Part shown: positions 3,496 through 18,566 of the stretch, piece by piece | Layout: each line of letters begins with the position of its first letter | How positions within the stretch are numbered: the first letter of the stretch is position 1 | Source: Candidatus Nitrosopelagicus sp. | GTDB taxonomy: Archaea > Thermoproteota > Nitrososphaeria > Nitrososphaerales > Nitrosopumilaceae | DNA length: 35,553 nucleotides | Direction of reading: 5' to 3' | Assembly: GCA_028345575.1 (NCBI GenBank) | Contig: JAOMDR010000014.1 | Coordinates: forward strand, 1-35,553 | Made by a program: the position numbers and the translations under genes | The notes under the pieces: model-generated | Seen by the model: the letters and a program-made list of their open reading frames with translations, nothing else | The model's database searches: none | Told to the model about the DNA's origin: nothing

Positions 3496-4211
3496 ACAAA
3501 GAAGAGATCACAGTTAGTGTTATCGTACCAGTCTATAATGAAGAAAAAACACTGCATACCGTACTAGAAAAAATTAATCAACAAAATATTTTTGGGTTCA
3601 AAATAGAAACAATTGTGATAAATGATGGTTCAACAGATAATTCATTGAAAATTCTTGAAGAAGATTCTAAATTATTTCATAAATTGATTAATTTAGAAAG
3701 AAATAGTGGCAAAGGTGCAGCAGTAAGAGAAGGATTGAAATTTGCCACAGGAGATTATATTTTATTTCAAGATGCAGATATGGAATACGATCCTTCTGAA
3801 TATGGAAAACTTTTGGAGCCAATAATTAAAGAGAATGCAGATATTGTAATAGGTAGCAGATTAATGACCTCATCATTAACAAGACGTGGAGGTTATTCAA
3901 GAAATAGGATAGGAAATAATTTTATCACATTTTTATTTAATTTATTAAATCATACAACCTTTACTGATATTTACAGTGGATACCTTATTTTTAAAAGAAG
4001 AAATATCACACCTGATAAATTAAGAACAGATGGATGGGAACAACAAGCAGAGATATTATCAAAAATAGTAAAAAATTCTAGTAAAATATGTGATGTACCA
4101 ATTGCATATTATGGACGAACTTATGAAGAAGGTAAAAAAATAAAACCAAAAGATGTGTTTAAGATAATTTCAACCATCATAGGAGAAAAGATTTCACCAT
4201 CTAAGAATTAG
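3492..4211 (+). CDS. family 2 glycosyltransferase (DPM1/polyprenyl-phosphate sugar transferase-like)
   Basis: A 239-residue GT-A protein. It has the N-terminal SVIVPVYNEEKTL motif, NDGSTDNS for nucleotide binding, SGKGAAVREGL, and a DAD metal site near residue 98 (FQDADMEYDP). There is no C-terminal membrane domain. Size and motifs match soluble dolichyl-phosphate mannose/glucose synthase-like enzymes, which charge a lipid carrier on the cytoplasmic membrane face. It is the last gene of the plus-strand operon and overlaps the previous gene by 4 nt (ATGA). The donor may be the UDP- or NDP-sugar made by the upstream genes; this is inference from operon order. Confidence 0.88.
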   Translation: MNKEEITVSVIVPVYNEEKTLHTVLEKINQQNIFGFKIETIVINDGSTDNSLKILEEDSKLFHKLINLERNSGKGAAVREGLKFATGDYILFQDADMEYDPSEYGKLLEPIIKENADIVIGSRLMTSSLTRRGGYSRNRIGNNFITFLFNLLNHTTFTDIYSGYLIFKRRNITPDKLRTDGWEQQAEILSKIVKNSSKICDVPIAYYGRTYEEGKKIKPKDVFKIISTIIGEKISPSKN

Positions 4212-4260
4212 AATTAATTTTGATTAAGATTAAAATAAATAGTAAAATAGAGTGGAATAG

Positions 4261-4270
4261 TATTTTTAAG
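4261..4270 (+). promoter_or_regulatory. TATA-like box upstream of galU
   Basis: TATTTTTAAG is centred about 25 nt before the galU ATG at 4290. A purine-rich GAGAGG at 4281-4286 lies close to the ATG and might act as a Shine-Dalgarno, but spacing is short. A separate promoter for galU is plausible since 78 nt separate it from the GT2 gene. Confidence 0.35.
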
Positions 4271-4289
4271 AGAATCAACTAGAGAGGTT

Positions 4290-5123
4290 ATGATAAATAA
4301 AATTGTCATTCCTGCAGGAGGATTAGGTACTAGATTATTACCAATTACAAAAGTGATACCAAAAGAGATGATGCCACTATTTTTACACGGTAAAAATGGA
4401 GAGATAATTGTAAAACCATTAATTCAGATAATATATGAAAAATTTTTCAAGTTTGGATTGCGTGAATATTGTGTAATTGTGGGAAAGCAAAAAAGAACTA
4501 TCGAGGATCATTTTACACCAAATCAGGAATTTTTGAGAAATTTTCATAAAAATACAAAATTCAAAACTGATTTAGAGAAATTTTATTCGATGTTAAATGA
4601 ATCAAAGATATTTTGGGTAAATCAACCAAATCCTAGAGGTTTTGGTGATGCAGTAAAACACGCAGGATCATTTGTGGGAAATGATGATTTCTTAGTCACA
4701 GCTGGAGATACACTCTTACCAACAGGAGATAAAATTATTAAAAAATTATTGAATTCAAAACTACAAGGAGAAAATGATGCAATAATATTACTGAAGAAAG
4801 TATCGAACCCAAAAAGATTTGGTGTCGCAGTAGTTAAGGAGGAAAAACATAAAATGAAAGTAATCAATGTTGAGGAAAAACCAAAAAAGCCAAAATCAAA
4901 TTTATCAATAGTAGCATTATACAGATTTAGACCATCAATTATCAAAGCATTAAATGAAATAAAATCTAACAAGACAGAATTACAATTAACTAGTGGAATT
5001 CAGAAATTAATTGATTGGGGCGGAAATGTTTCATGTATGATATTAGATGAAAAAGATCAGGTCATAGATATTGGAACAGGAGATTCATACCTTAATACTA
5101 TTCTAAAATTTAAAGCAATTTGA
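4290..5123 (+). CDS. galU: UTP-glucose-1-phosphate uridylyltransferase
   Basis: Makes UDP-glucose from UTP and glucose-1-phosphate. The 277-residue length is normal for GalU. Visible are the N-terminal nucleotide-binding signature GGLGTRLLPITKVIPKEM, the segment NPRGFGDAV, TAGDTL as the metal-binding aspartate region, and VEEKP followed by the sugar-site segment. A RmlA-type or other nucleotidyltransferase is less likely because of the KVIPKEMMPL segment. It has its own promoter-like region (TATTTTTAAG at 4261-4270) and a purine-rich GAGAGG just before the ATG. It would feed UDP-glucose to the Ugd/UXS-like pair upstream. It ends base-to-base against the stop of the convergent membrane gene. 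Confidence 0.93.
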   Translation: MINKIVIPAGGLGTRLLPITKVIPKEMMPLFLHGKNGEIIVKPLIQIIYEKFFKFGLREYCVIVGKQKRTIEDHFTPNQEFLRNFHKNTKFKTDLEKFYSMLNESKIFWVNQPNPRGFGDAVKHAGSFVGNDDFLVTAGDTLLPTGDKIIKKLLNSKLQGENDAIILLKKVSNPKRFGVAVVKEEKHKMKVINVEEKPKKPKSNLSIVALYRFRPSIIKALNEIKSNKTELQLTSGIQKLIDWGGNVSCMILDEKDQVIDIGTGDSYLNTILKFKAI

Positions 5124-6117: not shown

Positions 6118-6909
6118 TTATCGAGTTTTTCTTTTTTGTTCATGTTTCAATTTTCCTTTTTTGAGGGTTTTTGTGTTGAATTGTTTATTGATACTTTTAA
6201 TCATGTTTAGTGTTTCATTTTCAATTAGTTCTAAATTTGGCAATACACAATGACCTCCAATGATACCAGGAAACATTTTTGGTCGATTACCTAGATAGTT
6301 GTGGATTTCATCAGAAAATGTCCACATTTCATCATAATCAACATTATGCTTCATAGTAATCATCTTACTCATTTGTGCATAATTGATTAACCAACCATAA
6401 TACGAGGTATCACACACTATTTTAGCTAATTCCAAAGTTAACGGTTCGGACATTTGTTTTGTTTTAATTCCAGATTGTTTCATTGATTTTGAAAAAGATT
6501 TTGCAACAGATTTATTATTTTTCACATTTTTTTCCATAGCAAAAAACTTAGTATAACGTTTCAAGTCATATGACATTCTTTTATGGACACCACGTGTAGC
6601 ACTGTAAATAATAGGCACATCTGATTTTGATTGAATTTTTTGTGTTGTGTATGGTTTGATTGTACTATGTATGACTATAAATTCTGGAGAAAATAATTTT
6701 TCAAGAGATCTCACATTAGATACAAAATTACTAGTATAAGGAATGCAAACATGTAAAAACCTAGTAGGCAGATCTGAATGTTTTTCAAATAATGAATTCA
6801 TTAATTTTTTGTTTTTATCATATCCAACACAAATTGTATTTTTAGATATTAATTTGAGAATTGGTTGACCAATTTCCCCTAGACCAGCAACAACATTTTT
6901 TGTCTCCAT
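6118..6909 (-). CDS. shortened UDP-sugar dehydrogenase-like NAD-binding protein
   Basis: Distant relative of UDP-sugar 6-dehydrogenases. The N-terminal Rossmann motif (VVAGLGEIG), a strand-turn reading IHSTIKP, a helix with LELAKIVCDT whose lysine aligns with the family's catalytic-pocket Lys, and GIIGGHCVLPN that aligns with the catalytic-cysteine motif GGSC/GGHC are visible. The C-terminal UDP-binding domain is missing; after the Cys motif only about 40 mostly basic residues follow. The glutamate region of true dehydrogenases (PE.L.EG) is replaced by YSATRGVH. I chose the ATG at 6909; a TTG four codons upstream (6921) is possible. It is third in a minus-strand set after the deacetylase and formyltransferase. 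Substrate unknown; a dehydrogenase acting on a non-UDP substrate or a regulatory paralogue are both possible. Confidence 0.65.
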   Translation of the reverse strand: METKNVVAGLGEIGQPILKLISKNTICVGYDKNKKLMNSLFEKHSDLPTRFLHVCIPYTSNFVSNVRSLEKLFSPEFIVIHSTIKPYTTQKIQSKSDVPIIYSATRGVHKRMSYDLKRYTKFFAMEKNVKNNKSVAKSFSKSMKQSGIKTKQMSEPLTLELAKIVCDTSYYGWLINYAQMSKMITMKHNVDYDEMWTFSDEIHNYLGNRPKMFPGIIGGHCVLPNLELIENETLNMIKSINKQFNTKTLKKGKLKHEQKRKTR

Positions 6910-6944
6910 TAAATATATCAAAATTTTTTAGGTTAATACTGTTA

Positions 6945-7859
6945 CTAGATTAAGATATCACCAGTATTTACTTCACCGTCATAATCAGTTATCAGAATTA
7001 GACCAACTTTACACTTTACAACAAAGTCTCCAGTTGAAAATTTTTCTACAACTTGACCGATTTTTGCATCTAAGAAATCAATTTTAGTGTCAAAGGGTTG
7101 AGCTTTCCAGAACATGATTTTTTGTTTATGAATAAAAGAGAATGCACCAGGATATGGTTTAGTAACTGCTTTAATCAGATTATGTATTTCAAATGTAGTT
7201 TTATTCCAGGAAATTTTACCATCTTCAGGAGTTCTTTTTGGATAAAAACTAGGTTCACCTTTTTGAGGTATTCTAGAAAAATCATTTAGAAAGATTTTTG
7301 GAATTAAATTCGATAGTGATTGTTTCATAACTAAGGATATTTTATAGTAAATTGTTTGACACGTATCCCATTCATTAATATCAAAAGTTTGATGATAAAG
7401 GATATCACCATCATCAACTCCAGGAGTTAAAAGGAATAACTGCAAAATAAAGTGTTTTTTTCCTTCAATAATAGACCAATTTACCGGAGAACGTCCTCTT
7501 CCTTTTGGTAATAATTCGGAACTTCCATGTGAACCAATTCCACCTATTCTCAAAGTTTCTAAAACATTTTCAGGTATAAGACGTTGCCATCCACATACAA
7601 GTAACAAATCGAATTTTTCATTTTGAAAAAATGATAGATCTGATTCATCTTTCAAAGAATATAATTTTGGATAAAAGATCGGTATATTGTATTTGATAGA
7701 AAGTGTTTCAAATGATTTGTAACCAGATACTTTTGATTTTTCTGCTTGTTCAGAATTTAGAGAAATAATGTGAGAAATTTGTATGCCTTGTGATATAAGA
7801 TGATTTGTTACATCATATCCAAATTCTGTACAACCACATACTACAATTTTTTTATTCAT
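6945..7859 (-). CDS. formyltransferase-family protein (sugar N-formyltransferase-like)
   Basis: A 304-residue protein with the Fmt/ArnA-type formyltransferase fold: FDLLLVCGWQRLIP, then SHGSSELLPKGRGRSPVNW, then GVDDGDIL, followed by the C-terminal OB-like domain. The catalytic His (H111) and Asp (D149 in VDDGDIL) of the N-x-H...D triad are present, but the Asn position is Gly (G109). Archaea do not formylate initiator Met-tRNA, and the neighbours are glycan genes, so a role on an amino sugar using a formyl-folate donor is more likely than Met-tRNA formylation. Gap to the upstream deacetylase gene is 13 nt, so they are probably co-transcribed. Activity is uncertain because of the missing Asn. 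Confidence 0.75.
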   Translation of the reverse strand: MNKKIVVCGCTEFGYDVTNHLISQGIQISHIISLNSEQAEKSKVSGYKSFETLSIKYNIPIFYPKLYSLKDESDLSFFQNEKFDLLLVCGWQRLIPENVLETLRIGGIGSHGSSELLPKGRGRSPVNWSIIEGKKHFILQLFLLTPGVDDGDILYHQTFDINEWDTCQTIYYKISLVMKQSLSNLIPKIFLNDFSRIPQKGEPSFYPKRTPEDGKISWNKTTFEIHNLIKAVTKPYPGAFSFIHKQKIMFWKAQPFDTKIDFLDAKIGQVVEKFSTGDFVVKCKVGLILITDYDGEVNTGDILI

Positions 7860-7872
7860 TTAAATCAAAAGT

Positions 7873-8580
7873 TTAGGTAAACAATCTATGAATGTGAAAT
7901 CCCTCAGCATATTCTAAACCAATTTCATTTCCACGTATTCTAGCTAGAGAAAAAAGATTTTCTCCTCCACGTTGACCTTCTCTCATTTGTGTAGAATACA
8001 TATTTAGAATTTCAGCCTTTTTGCTAAGTTCATTCTTTGACAGATTAAGATAGAAATTTGGTTGGAATCTACCGAATTCAGAATATGCAGACCAGAAATA
8101 ATATTCAGGGGATTCATAAGAAATTACAAGTTGTGGCATATGTGTGGCTTTTTGTGGATGTGGTCTTAACGCTGCAATTGCAACTTTGTAAGCAAATGTA
8201 TGATCTTGATGAGTTGAGAAAATAGTAGGTATTGCAACTATAGTAGGTTTAATTTTTGAAATAGATATTTTACTTTTTGATTCAATATATTCAATTAATT
8301 CTTGTTGTGGTTTTGTATCTATATGTTGGATTTCATCATTGGTAAATGCCACATCATAATCATCAATTTCTAATATTTTTGAAACTTTAGATAATTCTTC
8401 TTGCCAATCTTCTGTATTAATTTGATTTCCTTCGATTTTTTTGTAGCCCCCTAGAGATAGAATCTGAACAAAGACCTCACCACCATTATCTTTAATTTTT
8501 TTAATCAGTCCATAACAACCCAATACTTCATCATCAGCATGGGGTGAAATCACCAATAATCTCTCTTTTTCTAATTTCAT
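7873..8580 (-). CDS. PIG-L/LmbE family N-deacetylase
   Basis: Zinc-dependent deacetylase of 235 residues acting on N-acetylated amino sugars or sugar conjugates in the cytoplasm. The first zinc motif is H14-A-D-D17 (SPHADDEVLGC), and the second is THQDHT near residue 124. The length is usual for the family, and the C-terminal half has the VISYESPEYYF segment. It begins a minus-strand set with the formyltransferase (13 nt downstream) and the dehydrogenase-like gene. Its ATG is preceded by an A/T box (about 8600-8612) at leaderless distance. In this context it may remove an N-acetyl group before N-formylation; a role on a GlcNAc-lipid or low-molecular-weight thiol precursor is the alternative. 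Confidence 0.87.
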   Translation of the reverse strand: MKLEKERLLVISPHADDEVLGCYGLIKKIKDNGGEVFVQILSLGGYKKIEGNQINTEDWQEELSKVSKILEIDDYDVAFTNDEIQHIDTKPQQELIEYIESKSKISISKIKPTIVAIPTIFSTHQDHTFAYKVAIAALRPHPQKATHMPQLVISYESPEYYFWSAYSEFGRFQPNFYLNLSKNELSKKAEILNMYSTQMREGQRGGENLFSLARIRGNEIGLEYAEGFHIHRLFT

Positions 8581-15013: not shown

Positions 15014-16072
15014 ATGAGAATACCATTTTTTGTTCAAGAATTTACAGATGAGATGGAAGAAGCTGCAATCCATGCATTACGAAATGAATCATTTGTAGGT
15101 GGAGAAAGTGTCTCTAAATTTGAAGAAGAATTTGCAAAATATACTGGTACAAGATATGCAGCATCAGTTAGTTCTGGAAATGGTGCATTACAAATTTCAT
15201 TGATGGCATTAGGAATAAGAGAATCGAATGAGGTCATAACTCCAACAAATTCATTCATTGCTTCAGCAAATTGTATCAGAATGACAAATGCAAAACCAAT
15301 TCTTACAGATATTGATACAAATGATGGCAGTATTGATCTGTCAAATAGTAAGAAAAATGTGAATGCAATTATTCCGGTTCATATTTACGGCAATCCATGT
15401 AATTTTGATTCAGTTAGATTATTTGCAGAAGAACAAAAAATTCCAATTATCGAAGATGCATGTCAAGCACATGGTGCAGAATACAAAGGAAAAAAGGTCG
15501 GCAGTTTAGGTGATGTGGGATGTTTCTCATTTTATCCAACAAAAAATATGACGGTTGGAGGAGATGGAGGAATGACTACAACAGATAATGAAGAAATTGT
15601 ATTGAAAATTAAATCAATTAGAGATAATGGAAGAAAAACAAAAAATGAATTTGATAAACTTGGATTTACGATGAGATTGAATACAGTAAATGCTGCTATT
15701 GGTAGAGTTCAGTTGAAACATCTGGATGAGAAAACTGCACGAAGAAGAGAAATTGTTTCCATTTATAGAAAAAATTTGTCACAAGATTGTATTTTACCTG
15801 AAAATAAAGATGGAAAGTCAGTATATCATCAAATCGTACTAAAACATGAAAAAAGAGATGAAATACGTAAGGAATTAGCAGATAATGATATAGGCTCTGC
15901 TATTTATTATGAAACACCAATACACCAACAACCCATATACAAATCTTATAAGAATTCATTACCTAATAGTGAGAAATTTTCAAAACTAATTTTATCACTT
16001 CCATCATATCCACAACTTACAGATGAACAAGCATTGGAAATTTGTGAGTGTGTAAACAAAGTAATTGGTTAA
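15014..16072 (+). CDS. DegT/DnrJ/EryC1/StrS family sugar aminotransferase
   Basis: PLP-dependent transaminase of 352 residues that adds an amino group to an NDP-keto-sugar. Visible: SSGNGALQISLMALG for phosphate binding, EVITPTNSFIASANC, EDACQAHGA with the PLP-contacting Asp, and the Schiff-base lysine K177 in SFYPTKNMTVGGDGG. The Lys is present, so it is an active-type member rather than a DegT dehydratase or sensor. ATG is preceded by a CATAATAAA box at about leaderless distance. With the PglD/NeuD-like acetyltransferase two genes away it forms a likely amine-plus-N-acetyl pair for a 4-amino sugar. It shares the stop tetramer TTAA with the convergent glycosyltransferase gene. Confidence 0.9.
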   Translation: MRIPFFVQEFTDEMEEAAIHALRNESFVGGESVSKFEEEFAKYTGTRYAASVSSGNGALQISLMALGIRESNEVITPTNSFIASANCIRMTNAKPILTDIDTNDGSIDLSNSKKNVNAIIPVHIYGNPCNFDSVRLFAEEQKIPIIEDACQAHGAEYKGKKVGSLGDVGCFSFYPTKNMTVGGDGGMTTTDNEEIVLKIKSIRDNGRKTKNEFDKLGFTMRLNTVNAAIGRVQLKHLDEKTARRREIVSIYRKNLSQDCILPENKDGKSVYHQIVLKHEKRDEIRKELADNDIGSAIYYETPIHQQPIYKSYKNSLPNSEKFSKLILSLPSYPQLTDEQALEICECVNKVIG

Positions 16073-17798: not shown

Positions 17799-18566
17799 AT
17801 GCAATATATTTTCTTGAGTCATGATGTAGATTGGAGAAGACAAGGTCCCAGTATACAACATATACAAGCAAGAAAAGACAGATTTGATCCAAAAATATTT
17901 AGCAAAACTAAACCTGTAGAATTGTATCGTAATATTCCAGAATATATTGAACTAGAGGAAAAATTTGGAATTCGTTCTACATTTTTCTTTAGAACATTAT
18001 ATGAAAATGGAAACGTTGACGATTATGAAGATGATATTCAAACACTGCAAAAAGGTAATTGGGAAATAGGATTACATACAGATCCTAAATCAGTAGAAGA
18101 TATTGAAAAAATTAAACAAGAACAAGAAAAATTAGAATCTTTAACACGAAAACCAATTATTGGAAATAGAGTTCATTTTCTAAATTATAATTCTGAATTA
18201 CCAAAAAAATTAAATGAATTAGGGTTTTTGTATGATGGATCTCTCAGACATTCAAAAGACAAAATTGATGAAAAAGAGATGGGGTATTCAAAAATTGATG
18301 GATTGATAGAATTTCCTGTTACACTAATGGATGCATATTTGTTTACACATATGGGAATTAAAGAAGAAGGAATTATTCCAGAATTTAAAAAAACGATAGA
18401 CATTGGTAGAAATTTTTCAGATGTGAATGTCATCAGCGTTATTTGGCATGATAATGTTTTAAAAATGAAAGGTGGGAGAATGTATGAAAAAATTTTAGAA
18501 TTCCTCACATCACAAGATGATGTAAAAATTTTATCTGGTAAAGATTTAGTTAAAATTTTAGAATAA
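17799..18566 (+). CDS. polysaccharide deacetylase-like (NodB-related) protein
   Basis: A 255-residue protein with a NodB-like fold: HDVDW near the N-terminus replaces the usual TFDDG motif, RSTFFFRTLYENG follows the common 'ATFF' strand, and WEIGLHTDP corresponds to the EIGxHT zinc motif, though the second His of HxxxH is not present. Near the C-terminus SVIWHDN matches the family's last conserved strand. Similar HDVD proteins are common in glycan loci of archaea and bacteria. It may deacetylate a glycan or may have lost that activity because zinc ligands differ. It follows the acyltransferase by 7 nt and converges with the radical SAM gene, 13 nt away. Confidence 0.7.
   Translation: MQYIFLSHDVDWRRQGPSIQHIQARKDRFDPKIFSKTKPVELYRNIPEYIELEEKFGIRSTFFFRTLYENGNVDDYEDDIQTLQKGNWEIGLHTDPKSVEDIEKIKQEQEKLESLTRKPIIGNRVHFLNYNSELPKKLNELGFLYDGSLRHSKDKIDEKEMGYSKIDGLIEFPVTLMDAYLFTHMGIKEEGIIPEFKKTIDIGRNFSDVNVISVIWHDNVLKMKGGRMYEKILEFLTSQDDVKILSGKDLVKILE

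Follow-up and report, generated by a model that had tools for sequence, protein, structure and literature searches.

The window, as we call the whole 35,553-nucleotide stretch of DNA that was analyzed, is contig 6 of a 1.1-Mb genome, 86% complete, from Candidatus Nitrosopelagicus sp. On its minus strand lie the two genes of a putative cassette. The first (7873 to 8580; 235 amino acids, ATG start) encodes a PIG-L/LmbE-family de-N-acetylase, here called PIG-L, and the second (6945 to 7859; 304 amino acids, ATG start) encodes an ArnA/Fmt-like formyltransferase, here called FT; the 13-nucleotide spacer between them (7860 to 7872) fits an operon. A third gene on the same strand, dehydrogenase-like and here called mini-UGDH (6118 to 6921; 267 amino acids from a TTG), adjoins the pair and falls outside the cassette. 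An ATG at 6909, four codons into the reading frame, is a likelier start than the TTG, and the gap to FT is 23 nucleotides from the TTG or 35 from the ATG. Around the pair are glycosyltransferase, epimerase, nucleotidyltransferase, flippase-like, asparagine-synthase-like, and aminotransferase genes. The original prediction had placed three minus-strand genes here, the first two 13 nucleotides apart, within a glycan region; the open reading frame coordinates bear out the former, and the glycosyltransferase, epimerase, nucleotidyltransferase, and flippase-like neighbors the latter. We note that the glycan region also contains a polysaccharide-deacetylase-like gene (17799 to 18566) with a weak match (E = 2e-4) to VimE, a UDP-2,3-diacetamido sugar deacetylase.

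PIG-L belongs to its superfamily both by domain content and by metal site. It matches Pfam domain PF02585 with 55.7 bits (E = 9e-15) against a curated cutoff of 28.2, and the residues of its metal motif, H14-x-D16-D17 and H127, are invariant in 11 relatives. The zinc site of PIG-L/LmbE proteins consists of HxDD and a His at a spacing of 97 to 148 residues (PMC4101496). In the window protein, H127 lies 110 residues past D17 and is within that range, and hydrolysis of an N-acetyl sugar is its predicted activity. The same motif, normally spaced, is found in PIG-L itself, MshB, BshB, and diacetylchitobiose deacetylase, and the PDB matches of the window protein are the known LmbE-superfamily members TT1542, BshB, and diacetylchitobiose deacetylase. 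It falls under the equivalog cutoffs, however (46.9 against 182.5 bits for BshB1).

FT is a homolog of the ArnA/Fmt family with an altered active site, and its formyltransferase activity is a prediction from sequence. Both domains of the Formyl_trans family exceed their Pfam cutoffs (PF00551, E = 3e-13; PF02911, E = 1e-16), and the best PDB sequence match is ArnA. The AlphaFold model is confident (pLDDT 93.6) and has the family fold, its best Foldseek match being the ArnA transformylase domain with N5-formyl-tetrahydrofolate and UMP (2bln; E = 4.5e-29, TM 0.81), followed by Fmt, WbkC, QdtF, and FdtF. WbkC, QdtF, FdtF, and ArnA formylate sugar amines, and with WbkC, QdtF, FdtF, and WlaRD our FT has in common the superfamily and the expected sugar-amine reaction. 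In the pathways of those four enzymes the amine is supplied by an aminotransferase, whereas the constant neighbor of FT is a de-N-acetylase. FT is not ArnA proper, the UDP-L-Ara4N formyltransferase: it scores 155.6 bits against an equivalog cutoff of 777, has no fused decarboxylase domain, carries a two-residue insert after HGS, and is partnered by a deacetylase gene rather than by a decarboxylase or aminotransferase gene.

What is unusual in FT is its active site. The catalytic triad of ArnA and Fmt is Asn-His-Asp, and FT keeps the His and the Asp (His111 and Asp149) but has Gly109 at the Asn position, in an ungapped alignment with both enzymes. The position is Gly in FT and in 13 of 14 aligned relatives (14 of 15 family members) and Cys in the remaining one (L074), while His and Asp are invariant. 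Formyl transfer is therefore less than assured, though compatible with what is conserved. The substitution, consistent across the family, could also mean that formyl transfer was lost and that FT acts as a deacylase or transfers a different one-carbon or acyl group, such that the pair would still swap an acyl group but not to formyl. We consider such a loss quite unlikely, as folate-bound ArnA provides both the fold and the top matches, PF02911 is kept, and no other donor site was detected.

Fmt and PurN are homologous families, and FT might accordingly act on initiator tRNA or on a purine precursor. FT scores below the NCBIfam cutoffs for both, however (127.1 against 201.5 bits for the methionyl-tRNA formyltransferase equivalog), and always lies beside a deacetylase gene. 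Moreover, the genome separately encodes its own PurN (228 against 150.1 bits), PurU, and FolD, and thus the formylation of purine precursors is accounted for and the cell should contain folate-bound one-carbon units. Finally, FT occurs in 2 of the 31 genomes of the genus, a distribution at odds with a housekeeping function. A purine or tRNA substrate is hardly credible on these grounds, and the earlier preference for a glycan target is supported by the separate PurN and PurU and by the lack of any other Formyl_trans_N protein in the genome besides these and FT.

The pairing of PIG-L and FT is rare but consistent. Close FT orthologs were found in 2 of 200 genomes of the family (the window genome and G117, 70% identical), and the FT family in 3 of 398 genomes of the phylum. 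Three archaea carry this FT (70 to 74% identity), namely, that of the window, the single-cell genome AG-439-M12 (L058), and AH-541-E13 (L057). Relatives bear the names Nitrosopumilus sp. and uncultured marine group I, in keeping with the archaeal assignment. In all three archaea, PIG-L adjoins FT and comes first, with gaps of 13, 19, and 29 nucleotides, and the PIG-L orthologs of L057 and L058, immediately upstream of FT, are 79% and 78% identical to that of the window. The surroundings of the L057 pair are otherwise different and, as read by eye, include RmlBCD-like and acyl-ligase genes among others. Because the adjacency is conserved, the pairing goes beyond chance, and the sequence comparisons support PIG-L and FT as a two-gene cassette. 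A search of plasmids returned only ArnA-like matches near 30% identity.

PIG-L is also found without FT. Orthologs 70 to 71% identical occur in FT-less genomes (G182 and G152), as do relatives of 45 to 71% identity in other Nitrosopumilaceae, and thus PIG-L also functions independently of FT, which weighs against the acyl exchange proposed below. Most likely, FT arrived later and came to lie next to a PIG-L gene already resident in the archaeal genome. In two FT-less loci (L093:7184-10547 and L094:4895-8262), a PIG-L ortholog of 70 to 71% identity is followed by a UDP-ManNAc-dehydrogenase-like gene and an asparagine-synthase-like gene. WbqC-family genes lie near PIG-L genes in other genomes without FT (L095:8717-9418 and L096:4562-5239); WbqC is a further candidate for modifying the freed amine. 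The genome of the window itself also has another PIG-L gene, which immediately precedes a NeuB gene (L055:690-2196; G000 contig 19).

The third gene fails the test that the pair passes: it does not keep the company of the other two in relatives, an outcome that the original prediction had named as refuting. Its product has no Pfam match above threshold, but the profile of its family aligns with UDP-sugar 6-dehydrogenases (hhalign 97.4%, E = 1e-11), Lys167 and Cys225 are invariant, and the NAD-binding and central domains of UDP-glucose/GDP-mannose dehydrogenases are recognizable. All members end after the catalytic Cys region and so lack the C-terminal NDP-binding domain (PF03720), for which reason we do not file the protein as a UDP-sugar dehydrogenase; that it was described at the outset as a shortened sugar dehydrogenase was nonetheless apt. 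Compared to the aligned UDP-sugar dehydrogenases, the family has Asp rather than Asn four residues past the Lys and Asn rather than, mostly, Asp four residues past the Cys, that is, after CxxP. Structure prediction had been proposed for all three proteins, and while it gave the confident ArnA-like model of FT, that of mini-UGDH is moderate (pLDDT 70, TM 0.47 to UDP-glucose dehydrogenase), and we draw no inference on substrate from it.

The original prediction joined all three genes in one module acting on a single sugar, and we find little in its favor. In the window the genes are adjacent, on one strand, with 23 nucleotides before the third, and in AG-439-M12 all three are close together, mini-UGDH being two genes from FT. 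Mini-UGDH is found, however, in 121 of 200 family genomes (85 of 119 good ones) and in 114 of 398 phylum genomes, whereas FT is found almost nowhere. Its neighbors differ nearly everywhere, including initiation-factor-2B-like/mtnA, SIS, DUF354, ABC transporter, and flippase-like genes, and in AH-541-E13 it is absent from the 16.9-kb pair locus and present elsewhere in the genome. A three-gene module is therefore very improbable, and the proposal that the third protein oxidizes or senses the same sugar found no support. We conclude that the trio is a local arrangement and that mini-UGDH is no part of the cassette. Mini-UGDH (6118 to 6921; L104 to L112) represents a Thermoproteota-wide family; two distant groups often have it next to a DUF354 gene. 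Versions of 600 to 640 amino acids looked like fusions to a partner domain but carry inteins instead: in seven Nitrosopumilaceae genomes, an intein of 378 to 380 amino acids (Intein_splicing plus LAGLIDADG) sits exactly before the invariant Cys, at GGH|C...HN|CVIPN (L041:8099-10024, L042:6178-8106, L043:6506-8425, L044:4957-6831, L045:5791-7707, L046:1-1809, and L051:889-2805).

Relatives of FT outside the three archaea speak to the order of the reactions. With bacterial genomes covered by a narrow pattern scan, the FT clade came to 10 members: the three window-type archaea, another archaeon, a Bacteroidota member, an actinobacterium (Salinibacterium), three marine viral contigs, and an uncultured phage of 634 kb. 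A second scan of viral contigs returned the same three loci. The FTs outside the three archaea are 35 to 55% identical. A predicted deacetylase is encoded directly upstream on the same strand in all 10 (gaps of -11 to +29 nucleotides), and these are not 10 independent events, as common ancestry links the three archaeal pairs and probably also the three viral ones. The upstream protein is PIG-L in three cases, an HDVD-type NodB-like protein in six, and a classical Polysacc_deac_1 protein in one (Pfam E = 3e-12). The non-PIG-L genes, all polysaccharide-deacetylase-like, overlap FT or lie at most 3 nucleotides away, as in the phage (deacetylase, 3126 to 4001; FT, 4001 to 4918). HDVD-type proteins are called deacetylases by weak profile matches (Pfam 5e-4 in two of seven; best PDB profile matches deacetylases, E = 0.003 to 0.08). 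No alignment is obtained between PIG-L and NodB-type proteins, and thus the three deacetylase types represent two unrelated folds. In marine viral contigs L071, L072, L073, and L075, a related FT directly follows a gene that by eye looks like an SGNH hydrolase, a possible further deacetylase partner.

The FT tree indicates that the partner was exchanged. The PIG-L-linked FTs form one clade (support 100/99) nested among NodB-linked FTs, with enclosing clades at 95/97 and 96/93 and the inner fork that joins them to L059, L060, and L101 at 93/94; a second tree had similar topology. It follows that the deacetylase was swapped at the same position for one of an unrelated fold, with the predicted activity kept, and the swap supports a required deacetylation step. 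The idea that the deacetylase and FT act in sequence, part of the original prediction, draws support from this and from the adjacency in three of three archaea, as the gene upstream of FT encodes a deacetylase even where it is of another family.

The amine might instead come from an aminotransferase, as in ArnB-ArnA and WbkB-WbkC. To our knowledge, all characterized sugar formyltransferases follow an aminotransferase; a PseC-like DegT aminotransferase is encoded in the window (15014 to 16072), and relatives' loci L060 and L067 to L069 also have an aminotransferase gene within about 7 kb. FT would then formylate the aminotransferase product, and the adjacency of PIG-L would be incidental. The examined loci of L057, L058/L047, L059, L061, and L101 contain no aminotransferase gene, however, whereas the deacetylase is directly upstream in every member, and incidental adjacency does not predict a swap to an unrelated deacetylase at the same position. 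We regard this source of the amine as rather unlikely.

We favor acyl exchange as the probable function of the pair, N-acetyl being replaced by N-formyl on an amino sugar that would go into a surface glycan. Gene contents, families, and adjacency are observed; from them we infer in what order the reactions proceed, which sugar and carrier are used, and where the formyl group comes from, as follows. PIG-L, as a zinc hydrolase, would release acetate from the N-acetyl group of an amino sugar that is probably attached to a nucleotide or a lipid, and FT would then move formyl, most likely from 10-formyl-tetrahydrofolate, onto the freed amine; the dehydrogenase-like gene would take no part. Viral FT relatives adjoin genes for a UDP-GlcNAc-3-dehydrogenase-like oxidoreductase, a hexapeptide acetyltransferase, and an aminotransferase, and archaeal PIG-L orthologs adjoin UDP-ManNAc-dehydrogenase-like and amidotransferase-like genes. 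Going by these neighbors, the substrate may derive from UDP-HexNAc and could be a uronic acid or uronamide.

Known systems offer parallels. NodB-NodA, the Nod factor N-deacetylase followed by an N-acyltransferase, and the heparan N-deacetylase/N-sulfotransferase each take off an N-acetyl group and put another group on the amine, but their second step is not homologous to that proposed here, for which the enzyme is a folate-type formyltransferase. More distant FTs lie beside PIG-L genes (L007, L008, and L070) or WbmS-like deacetylase genes (L010 and L066). L007 and L008, from other Nitrosopumilaceae, are nonulosonic acid loci that pair PIG-L with a formyltransferase as the window does, beside PseG-like genes and, in L007, a NeuB-like gene (by eye; PIG-L confirmed). 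Their FTs are just 30 to 34% identical and outside the FT clade, however, and the loci differ in gene order and orientation. A nonulosonic acid pathway was rejected as the home of the pair, as the window is without NeuB and both NeuB genes of the genome are on other contigs; the parallel is only that. In the open-access literature, we found no report of an N-formyl sugar in these archaea, no paper describing a deacetylase-formyltransferase pair, and nothing usable on the Bordetella wbmS/T/U or Pseudomonas GalNFmA genes, and formyl sugars go unmentioned in glycoproteomic work on two Nitrososphaerota.

In known N-formyl sugars, the formyl group is put on an amine that an aminotransferase installed. 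The genomic evidence here suggests that an N-acetyl sugar already present has its acyl group exchanged, such that sugar N-formylation would proceed with an amine apparently from a deacetylase. That one deacetylase family gave way to another, unrelated one argues independently for this reaction order. Archaea, bacteria, and large phages may even share a general, so far unrecognized way of making N-formyl amino sugars, in which an Asn-less FT clade is always coupled to an interchangeable de-N-acetylase of PIG-L or NodB type and the amine comes from deacetylation, not transamination; to this broader proposal we give slightly less than even chances. How formyl would be transferred without the catalytic Asn is a biochemical question that the family raises. 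If acyl exchange is correct, formamido sugars would be predicted in phage-encoded glycan modification and on the surface of some marine ammonia-oxidizing archaea, the glycans of which are almost unknown.
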